Assembly (NCBI RefSeq): GCF_002097715.1
Contig: NZ_CP020737.1
Coordinates: 372,001-436,000, forward strand
Reading direction: 5' to 3'
Source: Burkholderia ubonensis subsp. mesacidophila
GTDB lineage: Bacteria; Pseudomonadota; Gammaproteobacteria; Burkholderiales; Burkholderiaceae
DNA: 64,000 nucleotides
The notes beneath the pieces were generated by a model. That model was given only the letters and a program-made list of their open reading frames with translations. It made no database searches and had not been told where the DNA came from. Below are positions 31,875 through 60,349 of this stretch, piece after piece. Position 1 is the stretch's first letter; each line of letters starts with the position of its first letter. The translations under genes were made by a program, and so were the position numbers.

Positions 31875-31885
31875 GGCCGTCGACG

Positions 31886-31992
31886 AAACAGGGGTGCTTC
31901 GTGCACGGCCGGCAGAGATTCCGGCGCCGCAGCGAGGCTGAGAGAGACCCTTCGCACCCGATCCGGGTAATACCGGCGCGGGAAGTTTCCGA
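31886..31992 (+). ncRNA. TPP riboswitch (THI element)
   Basis: Contains the conserved THI-box blocks in order: AACAGGGGTGC (31887-31897), GCTGAGAGAGACCC (31937-31950), and GATCCGGGTAATACCGGCG (31960-31978) followed by CGGGAAG. The middle arm is the variable, species-specific hairpin. It lies 220 bp before thiO, and downstream stretches such as GCTGGC (32007) / GCCAGC (32025) could form the expression platform. It should lower thiOSGE expression when thiamine pyrophosphate is plentiful. The region 31993-32215 shows no gene. Confidence 0.93.
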
Positions 31993-32215
31993 TCCCGCCG
32001 GGCTGCGCTGGCTGCGTCCCCATTGCCAGCGCCCTGTTCCGCCCGGCCGGCCTTTGCTGCCGGTTTCGTCCTTTTGGGTACGCGCGACGCGTGTTACGGA
32101 AGGATTCGATGGCCGATCAATCTTCAGTTTTTTGTCCCGCCCCGCGCGCGTTTGCGCGGGATTGCGCACGCGTGTCCGCGCCATATGGACGCGCTTTTCG
32201 CGGGGAGAGCGTCCG

Positions 32216-47191: not shown

Positions 47192-47812
47192 ATGGATCTG
47201 CTCAAATCGTTCATTTCGCTGCTCGCGCTGATCAACCCGGTCGGCGCGGTGCCGTTTTTCCTGAGCCTGACCGCGCAGCAGACGGACGACGAGCGGCGCC
47301 GCACGATCCGGATCGCGTCGGTGTCGGTGTTCTGCGTGATCACGGTGACGACGCTGCTCGGCCAGCAGATCATCGACTTCTTCGGCATTTCGGTCGGCTC
47401 GCTGGAGGTCGGCGGCGGGATCATCATGCTGCTGATGGCGATCAGCATGCTGAACGCGCAGGCCGGCAATACCCGCTCGACGCCGGAGGAGCGCCACGAA
47501 GCCGAGCAGAAGGACAACATCGCGGTGGTGCCGCTCGCGATCCCGCTGCTGACGGGCCCCGGCTCGATCAGCACGGTGATCATCTATGCGGCGAACTCGC
47601 GTCACTGGTATGAGCGGGCCGGGCTCGTCGCGATCGGCGCGATCCTCGCCTGCCTGTGTTTCGTCGCGATGCGGCTCGCCGAGCCGATCGCGAACTGGAT
47701 CGGCCGCACCGGTATCAACATCGCCACGCGGCTGATGGGACTGATGCTGTCGGCGCTGGCGGTGGAATTCATCGTCAACGGACTGAGGGCGCTACTGCCT
47801 GCACTGAGATGA
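47192..47812 (+). CDS. MarC-family integral membrane protein
   Basis: 206-aa protein with six helices, beginning [20 protein letters not shown], the MarC/UPF0056 N-terminus. [20 protein letters not shown] is the second family signature. Function of the family is uncertain; early claims of antibiotic resistance for E. coli MarC were not upheld. It lies inside the his run, and its stop overlaps the hisH start, so it is translationally coupled with histidine synthesis. Whether that is functional is unknown. Confidence 0.9.
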
Positions 47813-48450
47813 AAACTTCGATTGCGATTGTGGATTATGGGATGGGCAACCTGCGCTCGGTCGCGCAGGCGCTCAAGCAGGCCGAACCGGCCGCCGACGT
47901 GGCGATCGTCGACACGCCGGCCGCGATTCGCGCGGCCGACCGCGTCGTGCTGCCCGGCCAGGGCGCGATGCCGGACTGCATGCGCTGCCTCGGCGAATCG
48001 GGCCTGCAGGAAGCGGTCCTCGAAGCGTCGCGCACGAAGCCGCTGCTCGGCGTGTGTGTCGGCGAGCAGATGCTGTTCGACTGGAGCGCCGAAGGCGACA
48101 CGAAGGGCCTCGGCCTGCTGCCCGGCAAGGTCGTGCGCTTCGCGCTCGACGGCCAGCTGCAGGACGACGGCTCGCGCTTCAAGGTGCCGCAGATGGGCTG
48201 GAACCGCGTGCGTCAGGCGCAGCCGCACCCGTTGTGGGACGGCGTGCCGGACGACGCCTATTTCTACTTCGTGCACAGCTATTACGTCACGCCGGACAAC
48301 CCGGCGCATACGGTCGGCGAAACGGTCTACGGTGCGCCGTTTACGTCCGCGGTCGCGCGGGACAATCTCTTCGCGACCCAATTCCACCCGGAGAAAAGCG
48401 CGGAAGTCGGGTTGCGTCTGTATCGCAACTTCGTACACTGGAAACCGTAA
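47809..48450 (+). CDS. hisH: Imidazole glycerol phosphate synthase, glutaminase subunit
   Basis: Glutaminase of 213 aa that feeds ammonia to HisF. Class I amidotransferase triad: cysteine in [12 protein letters not shown] (near residue 83), and the His-Glu pair in [33 protein letters not shown] and [12 protein letters not shown] are typical HisH blocks. Start overlaps the MarC gene. The next his gene is 449 bp away across a structured element. Confidence 0.96.
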
Positions 48451-48510
48451 ACGTGGCGCGCGAACCACAGTCGGGGAGCGTGAAACGCCCGCCGCACGGG
48501 GCTCGCCCTG

Positions 48511-48797
48511 GGGCCTGTTCCCGCCAATAACGGGCTTGCGCTGGCCGCCAGAAGGGCCGAGCGCAAGGAATGGGACGCAGCGAATACTGGACGTATTCGC
48601 AAGGAGCATGACGCGGCGATCGGCCCTTCTGGTGGCCAGCCCCGCGAGTGATTTTTTCAAATCAGGGGAACGTGCCTTTCCGGCCGCATTGCAGCGTCGA
48701 TCGTCGCTTGTTTGGCTCGGCCAAACGGCGCTCCTCACTCCTTGCACTGCGACCGGAAAGGCACGTTCGCAAGCCCGTTATTGGCGGGAACAGGCCC
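48511..48797. repeat. 287-bp nested inverted-repeat element (four-way-junction cloverleaf) between hisH and hisA
   Basis: Outer arms are a perfect 30-bp inverted repeat (48511-48540 with 48768-48797). Inside, three hairpins fill the space with no unpaired base between them. Arm 1 is a 20-bp stem, 48541-48560 with 48620-48639, with one G-T pair that would be a G-U wobble in RNA; its tip is CGAATAC-TGGAC-GTATTCG (48581-48599). Arm 2 is CCCC (48640-48643) with GGGG (48665-48668), plus TGATTT-TTTC-AAATCA (48649-48664). Arm 3 is a 15-bp stem, 48669-48683 with 48753-48767, and contains GTTTGG-CTCGG-CCAAAC (48710-48726). Arm 1 also holds an imperfect direct repeat (CAAGGAATGGGACGCAGCG / CAAGGAGCATGACGCGGCG). 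No coding gene is supported in 48451-48899. Transcribed or DNA-level function is unknown. Confidence 0.9.
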
Positions 48798-48899
48798 TAA
48801 GCGCCGAACGAGTTGTACTAAACTAGCGAGACGACGCGACACCGGATGGGCCGGTGCGCGTGCGACTCTTTTCCTTTTCCCAGACGACAACCGATTGCT

Positions 48900-49655
48900 A
48901 TGTTGCTGATTCCGGCCATCGATCTCAAAGACGGTCAGTGTGTGCGCCTCAAACAGGGCGATATGGACCAGGCTACGATTTTCTCCGAGGACCCCGCGGC
49001 GATGGCCCGCAAATGGGTCGACCTCGGCGCCCGGCGGCTCCATCTCGTCGACCTGAACGGCGCGTTCGCCGGCAAGCCGAAGAATCTCGAGGCGATCGAG
49101 GCGATCCTCGAAGAAGTCGGCGATGAAATCCCCGTGCAGCTCGGCGGCGGCATCCGCAGCCTCGAGACGATCGAGAAGTATCTCGACGCGGGCCTGTCGT
49201 ACGTGATCATCGGCACCGCGGCCGTGAAGGACCCGGGCTTCCTGCAGGACGCGTGCAGCGCGTTCGCGGGCAGCATCATCGTCGGCCTCGACGCGAAGGA
49301 CGGCAAGGTCGCGACCGACGGCTGGAGCAAGCTGACGGGGCACGAGGTGATCGATCTCGCGCAGAAGTTCGAGGACTACGGCGTCGAATCGATCGTCTAC
49401 ACGGACATCGGCCGCGACGGCATGCTGCAGGGCATCAACATCGAGGCGACCGTGAAGCTCGCGCAAGCGGTCGGTATTCCGGTGATCGCGAGCGGCGGCC
49501 TGTCGAACCTCAACGACATCGAGAAGCTGTGCGAGGTGGAAGCGCACGGCGTCGAAGGCGTGATCTGCGGCCGTGCGATCTACTCCGGCGATCTCGACTT
49601 CGCGGCCGCGCAGAAGCGCGCGGACGAACTGAACGGCGAGCTCGACAACGCCTGA
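48900..49655 (+). CDS. hisA: ProFAR isomerase (1-(5-phosphoribosyl)-5-[(5-phosphoribosylamino)methylideneamino]imidazole-4-carboxamide isomerase)
   Basis: 251-aa TIM barrel for the Amadori rearrangement in histidine synthesis. [20 protein letters not shown] carries the catalytic Asp at the end of strand 1; [47 protein letters not shown] (second catalytic Asp) and [14 protein letters not shown] follow. The start is the ATG at 48900; the purine-rich spacing upstream is poor. It must either be read from the hisH transcript through the structured element or have its own promoter. Confidence 0.96.

Positions 49656-60273: not shown

Positions 60274-60349
<76 letters not shown>

Follow-up and report, generated by a model that had tools for sequence, protein, structure and literature searches.

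A cloverleaf-forming repeat of Burkholderiales as a probable MITE-like passenger of IS427-like insertion sequences

In Burkholderia ubonensis subsp. mesacidophila, the genes hisH and hisA are separated by a 287-bp element whose terminal inverted repeat encloses three hairpins (Table 1). The window in which it lies is the whole stretch of DNA that was analysed, 64,000 nucleotides of contig NZ_CP020737.1. Does the element regulate the his genes, does it work as a structured RNA, or is it a piece of mobile DNA? A reading made from the letters of the window alone (hereafter, the sequence-only reading) had placed these possibilities side by side.

Architecture and the hisH-hisA site

An inverted-repeat search recovered the terminal repeat (48511-48540 with 48768-48797; 30 nt, 100%) and the stems of the two arms, 48540-48564 with 48616-48640 (25 nt, 92%) and 48668-48693 with 48743-48768 (26 nt, 92%). 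Terminal repeats are also near-perfect in relatives. As read from the sequence, arm 1, the middle hairpin and arm 2 abut exactly; the coordinates and anatomy given by the sequence-only reading (a 30-bp perfect inverted repeat, three hairpins, exact abutment) are thus correct. Arms 1 and 2 are approximately reverse complements of each other, with a 74% own-strand match. With inverted repeats nested inside the element, each DNA strand can fold into a four-way cloverleaf.

Table 1. Positions in the window of the element, its parts and the flanking genes
Feature	Position	Strand	Basis
Whole cloverleaf element (MITE-like repeat)	48511..48797	+	copies in own genome, empty sites, fold
Left terminal inverted repeat, with an outer GGGCCTGTTCCC of the IS5/IS427 end type	48511..48540	+	sequence
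Arm 1 hairpin with conserved tip	48541..48639	+	copy alignment, inverted-repeat search
Middle hairpin CCCC...GGGG; CCCGAAGGG in most other-family relatives	48640..48668	+	sequence
Arm 2 hairpin; conserved tip CTTGTTTGGCTCGGCCAAACGGCGC; approximately the reverse complement of arm 1	48669..48767	+	copy comparison
Right terminal inverted repeat	48768..48797	+	inverted-repeat search
TA, probably the right copy of the duplicated target	48798..48799	.	left side now TG (48509-48510)
hisH, flanking gene outside the element	47809..48450	+	read from sequence
hisA, flanking gene outside the element	48900..49655	+	read from sequence

The predicted RNA fold of 48501-48807 has a free energy of -205.6 kcal/mol (z -13.2), which none of 100 shuffles equals, and the DNA fold of 48511-48797 scores -121.3 (z -15.1), equalled by none of 200 shuffles. 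By a script criterion, four helices meet without an unpaired base at the junction in 109 of the 142 copies extracted; none of 100 controls, with the interior shuffled and the ends kept, has such a junction. The element carries no transposase and is non-coding. Copies are mostly 265-289 bp, with lengths that are not multiples of three; the longest closed ORF (median 79 codons) is a chance ORF, and the stems are wholly different between subfamilies.

The sequence-only reading had also considered an attenuator of hisAFIE. This proposal is rejected because, among 30 hisH-hisA regions that are the best matches from 65 genomes, 27 are empty, one is the intact window copy, and the remaining two (L131 and L140) hold decayed copies that, judged by eye, have lost the left repeat and arm 1. 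Regions without the element, the kind of site that the sequence-only reading had proposed to look for, are the rule among these 30. An intact insertion is also present in two further genomes (L011 and L031), and the insertion is common to at least five genomes. Its position between hisH and hisA and its presence in these genomes are what a regulator of hisAFIE, through attenuation or otherwise, would have in its favor; however, given the empty regions and the two broken copies, we regard such a role as extremely improbable. A consensus scan of 48400-48950 found no promoter- or terminator-like site. At hisH-hisA the element is a passenger, and an ordinary one.

In many empty hisH-hisA sites, CTAA stands at the point corresponding to the start of the window copy's right flank; the left flank of that copy has changed too much to reveal a duplication. 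Comparison of the broken his copies gives 8 one-sided and 0 paired changes; with the left repeat and arm 1 missing, most pairs are already gone, which makes this comparison weak.

Three other signals were recorded in the window. Upstream of hisA, GAGTTGTACTAAACTAGCGAGAC at 48810-48832 is present in the 30 loci read (by eye) and is possibly a hisA promoter or another signal. Matches to Rfam mark a TPP riboswitch (RF00059) at 31880-32001 and a tRNA gene (RF00005) at 60274-60346.

Copies, targets and shared ends

The genome that holds the window contains at least 16 full copies (15 span positions 1-287 and one 3-287) and several partial ones, a lower bound obtained from 40 scored candidates of 65. 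Matches with E 0.001 or better, some of them short, are found in 57 of 65 genomes of the genus and in 86 of 299 genomes of the family, representing 10 of its 25 genera; these counts are likewise lower bounds, with part of the candidates scored. The search of Burkholderia genomes for further copies that the sequence-only reading had suggested thus found many; membership in a dispersed repeat family was not visible from the letters of the window alone. Across the order, the pattern of the arm-2 tip occurs in 7 of 399 genomes, namely, the one that holds the window and six in five other families. Eleven loci from those six genomes were inspected, and nine (five genomes, four families) have the same cloverleaf layout with different stems; of the other two, one lacks a terminal repeat and the second is truncated by the end of its contig. 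Tip 2 was the means of finding these loci, so their likeness counts as independent only outside that tip.

In a plasmid collection, seven records match, from Burkholderia (four), Caballeronia, Paraburkholderia and Cupriavidus (one each), and three of the seven cover most of the element. A phage collection yielded no match, and a phage origin was rejected. Literature searches in an open-access library turned up no description of this repeat, and the word Burkholderia is absent from PMC2267715.

In several subfamilies (L056/L058/L060, L075-L081, L082-L093 and L092), most or all of the long stems have a sequence different from that of the window copy. Their copies nevertheless retain the layout, the hairpin tips and mostly the outer GGGYCTGTT; exceptions to the last are L091, with GAGTCTGTT, and one L092 copy, with GGGCCTATT. 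In five genomes, extracted copies differ from one another by a median of 5-11%. The closest pairs within each of these genomes are 91-98% alike, so very recent movement is not seen.

Some copies have been altered in other ways. A GC-rich hairpin of 26-28 bp (CCCC-AAGGGGACTTCC type) is inserted inside certain copies (L105 versus L103; L229 versus L021; L110-L112); a regular expression finds it in 23 of 142 copies, and at one site it is polymorphic between species. It is perhaps a second, tiny mobile repeat. In L096 (1000-1035), a collapsed element has terminal repeats that almost touch and no interior, and end positions alone mark G061:C122:3522-3558 and G092:C83:11791-11821 as further candidates. 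L104 is normal except that CAATAGCTACGGCTATTG, a hairpin of unrelated sequence, takes the place of the arm-2 tip.

At 60 of 113 independent sites the element has TA on each side, at 35 on a single side and at 18 on neither. The commonest side sequences, with a slash at the edge of the element, are CTA/G (88) and TTA/G (50) of 225. The TA flanks at independent sites indicate that insertion duplicates TA within a YTAR target. At L038, the joined flanks are 2 nt longer than the empty site in two of three relatives, and the relatives read TCTCGC at the insertion point rather than YTAR; the empty site of L041 is too diverged to define a duplication.

Of the 225 flanks, 101 contain a gene-like frame (at least 270 nt, with third-position GC bias) that ends near the element, and 34 of the stops are TAG codons composed of the flanking TA and the first G of the element. 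A further 13 gene-like frames end at other points within the element, and chance truncation of a gene may therefore account for some of the 34. Because both ends usually start with G, insertion into a YTAR stop codon would rebuild TAG in either direction.

The ends of the element, YTA/GGGYCTGTTYNC, match those of an insertion sequence of the IS5 family (IS427-like). The transposase domain PF13340 is present in 65 of 65 genomes of the genus, and among 30 loci fetched there are two insertion sequences with element-type ends: L288 (CTA/GGGTCTGTTCAC ... AACAGACCC/TAG) and L289 (CTA/GGTCCTGTTCAC ... AACAGACCC/TAG), each of 826 bp. Their type of transposase occupies two frames and belongs to the IS5 family (NF033580, PF13340). 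In PMC3281130, insertion sequences of the IS427 group are tabulated as 832-865 bp long, mostly with a 2-bp duplication and with two overlapping ORFs. On that description, the features of the L288/L289 type fit the IS427 group.

Of 30 relatives of the L288-type transposase that one scan found, 11 have both such ends and 10 have one. The ends are 816-883 bp apart in ten of these 11 relatives and 670 bp apart in the other. The pattern used here is looser than the ends of the element and was set after L288 had been seen; in three control sets of 30 loci each, it finds no pair. In the genome that holds the window and in three other carriers, exact-type ends pair only at the length of the element or less. 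No insertion sequence with the exact ends was found in these four genomes, and the helper may therefore have been lost or be a different one.

Judged by eye from L288 and copies of the element, the likeness covers the outer 12-14 bp and stops after ~14 bp, and inspection shows that the L288 interior is not shared. Because the likeness extends over only ~14 bp, the cloverleaf looks like a passenger and not like a deletion derivative. The shared 12-14 bp could be a convergence within ends of the IS5 type. However, matching ends are best explained if the element is a MITE-like passenger of an IS5-family transposase, and an IS427-like transposase most likely moved it, to judge from the ends. The sequence-only reading had seen a likeness to neither a terminator nor an insertion sequence. 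The first part stands, as an intrinsic terminator was rejected (0 GC hairpins with a T run in the consensus scan of 48400-48950), but the second does not, since an IS427-like insertion sequence has the same outer 12-14 bp and the same target. By contrast, its suggestion of a mobile non-coding element is supported by dispersed copies, empty sites, TA flanks and IS5-family ends.

Two other partners were rejected. Insertion sequences with PF01609 in the genome of the window (7 loci) have best inverted repeats that are of other sequence or unclear, and IS630 (PF13358 in 19 of 65 genomes) gave no convincing end pair at 30 loci: the pair of L323 lies in a neighboring cloverleaf, and three one-mismatch pairs look like chance. 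As separate observations, an insertion sequence with a 379-aa transposase and CAGGCTGTTGAAA ends lies at a cloverleaf end in L120, with L048 (2.70 Mb on C1 of the window's genome), and an IS630-type insertion sequence with a TAGTGTTCCGTCCC end lies at the end of a cloverleaf element in L323. These insertion sequences apparently use the CTAG of the cloverleaf as a target.

Paired changes in the stems

A first alignment comprised 38 of 78 copies, chosen by hand, with long-insert, short, unoriented and similar copies left out. Of its 97 predicted pairs, 48 change on both sides. Watson-Crick pairs fill 2,437 of the 2,495 long-stem cells, the others being G·T (18), A·C (20) and other combinations (20); double changes account for 337 cells, 185 of them of the transversion type. 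From a later set of 142 copies, one unoriented copy was left out of the alignment, in which the window copy appears twice, once as L001 and once as the reference; L060/L080, a pair of a different subfamily, was also skipped. The long stems of this set hold 9,191 Watson-Crick, 58 G·T, 55 A·C and 57 other cells, and tip pairs with a Watson-Crick majority include 83 G·T and 78 A·C. Cell counts in both sets include related sequences many times; as distinct column states, the long stems of the full set have 29 G·T, 31 A·C and 32 other. All structures are RNAalifold predictions from the + strand, a procedure that favors G·T over A·C.

RNase P RNA from the same bacterial family served as a control with the same folding, with 24 loci used of 30 fetched and with matches in 40 of 41 searched genomes. 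It has 256 G·U and 46 A·C cells (63 and 29 as distinct states) and 152 double-change cells. Thus, the stems of the element covary without the strand-specific G·U bias of RNase P RNA.

The same process can be followed at fixed sites, because 14 clusters of copies share both flanks. Along 28 tree steps at such sites, 1,847 comparisons include 23 compensated and 27 one-sided pair changes; random placement of the changes would hit both sides of 1.2 pairs, with a maximum of 6 in 20,000 trials. The sequence-only reading had taken uncompensated stem mutations in homologous copies as evidence against its view. If a state is counted a single time for each site and pair, the intact copies that share a site have 23 one-sided changes, of the kind it had named, and 18 compensated ones, which agree with it. 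For example, L013 and L018 differ at 4 sites, two of which form one pair 90 nt apart, and L036 and L218 differ at 6 sites, two of which form one pair 268 nt apart. Certain pairs vary repeatedly, 163/253 in 5 steps and 166/250 in 3.

At 3 of the 14 shared sites, different species carry the element in opposite orientations. L002 and L189 are inverted relative to each other and 99.3% identical, whereas the next closest extracted copy in both genomes is 95.1% identical. By eye, the arm-1 tip is inverted in L090 and L113. Divergence between orthologs is 22/1,624 plus 53/2,071 in the stems (75/3,695 sites), 55/1,456 plus 74/1,819 in the tips (129/3,275 sites) and 67/675 in the middle loop.

According to PMC8604942, template switching between inverted repeats homogenises the arms and inverts the spacer, and PMC8794818 attributes compensatory stem changes to template switching. 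The absence of a G·U bias, together with the opposite orientations, favors template switching during replication over selection for an RNA. We therefore consider the element to be, probably, a non-autonomous MITE-like element of Burkholderiales that travels as an IS427-like passenger and whose stems are kept paired mainly by template switching. An IS5-family (IS427-like) transposase would act through the outer 12-14 bp on a TA/YTAR target. Replication would switch template between the arms of an inverted repeat, so that one arm is copied onto the other and the stems stay almost perfectly paired; now and then, such a switch would invert the sequence between the arms. Selection on mobility may add to the pairing and probably keeps the hairpin tips. 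Against this explanation count the 18 of 113 sites without flanking TA, the failure of the L038 relatives to read YTAR and the failure to find an insertion sequence with the exact ends in the four carriers searched.

Selection on the folded DNA itself, through a cloverleaf (cruciform or single strand) bound for mobility by a transposase, a host factor or a junction enzyme, is a possibility that deserves some weight, although we do not favor it. It would explain why the layout is retained across the order despite wholly different stems, why most copies have an exact four-way junction, why wobble counts are equivalent on both strands and why, at shared sites, divergence is lower in the stems than in the tips and the loop. 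However, paired changes also accumulate at one fixed site (23 versus 27), where mobility is not under selection, and a transposase is expected to need the ends only. Lower divergence in stems than in tips among orthologs would also be expected under purifying selection. Conservation of the tips across the order exceeds what a mere passenger needs, with tip 2 being conserved there by choice of the pattern. More speculatively, the element might be a DNA parasite defined by shape, in which the cloverleaf and a few apical letters are kept across the order, all helices are renewed wholesale by template switching, the ends are of the IS5 type and the tips are recognised on folded DNA (single-stranded or cruciform) by the transposase or a host junction-binding factor. 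An IHF site, found in 0 of 142 copies, was rejected.

Gene conversion with other genomic copies, rather than self-templating, is an unlikely source of the compensated changes. Isolated pair changes occur in near-identical copies (L013/L018 and L036/L218), whereas a conversion tract should carry more differences, given how far copies within a genome differ. Conversion keeps some weight because the same pairs vary repeatedly and some pair states recur.

A structured RNA had been among the proposals of the sequence-only reading. We judge it improbable that the element is a functional RNA (a small RNA or an mRNA-processing element) that is itself mobile, with pairing kept by selection on the transcript. 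The very stable fold, the double changes at half of the pairs, the layout shared with other families and the mostly intergenic position would all suit such an RNA. Of 57 clear tandem gene sites, 35 have the + strand as the sense strand and 22 have it as the antisense strand, an estimate that is rough because it uses 300-bp flanks and leaves 35 of 112 sites unclear. The tips of the 38-copy alignment are also rich in wobble pairs (169 G·T versus 8 A·C), but four nearly fixed columns, paired by the RNA folding itself, contribute 145 of these cells. Against an RNA, G·T and A·C are balanced in the stems and tips of the full set, unlike in RNase P RNA, and the scan around the element gave no promoter- or terminator-like site. 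A known Rfam family was rejected, with no match to the element up to E 1.

Relation to known repeats and significance

The element shares with insertion sequences of the IS427 group (IS5 family) the ends YTA/GGGYCTGTTYAC and the YTAR context, and its TA resembles the 2-bp duplication that PMC3281130 tabulates for most of them. It differs in lacking a transposase and in inverted repeats that look unrelated beyond 12-14 bp; no cloverleaf was seen by eye in the two insertion sequences read, L288 and L289.

Like bacterial MITEs (reviewed in PMC10969869), the element is short, non-coding and dispersed, with terminal inverted repeats and a target duplication. Dispersed copies with such repeats, duplication and empty sites and no transposase were all found, and IS5-family insertion sequences with the same ends over 12-14 bp, from two genomes of the genus and from relatives, provide a partner. 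The element differs from MITEs in that three further hairpins abut the terminal repeat as a four-way junction, stems are replaced while tips persist, relatives occur in other families, and both orientations are found at shared sites.

Repeats of the Correia, ERIC and YPAL type are palindromic and intergenic, some with TA duplication, but they are smaller and live in other hosts; as these repeats are generally described, the element is likewise palindromic and intergenic and is larger. REP/REPIN sequences are associated with RAYT and carry a tetranucleotide tag. The element resembles REP/REPIN (PMC3733652) in its dispersed hairpins in inverted arrangement, but at 287 bp, with TA flanks and IS5-type ends, it differs from them. 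The element is a widespread new relative of MITEs that forms a cloverleaf and probably travels as a passenger of an IS427-like transposon. Its architecture and mode of stem evolution are unusual.

The tendency to land in stop codons and rebuild TAG suggests how a repeat may spread with little harm. A functional RNA is normally taken as proven by paired changes in its stems, and here such changes are most likely not proof: half of the predicted pairs covary, without strand bias, in a DNA repeat that is most likely parasitic. More than 100 copies form a natural series for measuring the covariation that is made by replication alone, and the comparison of G·T with A·C counts offers a simple control for RNA discovery.
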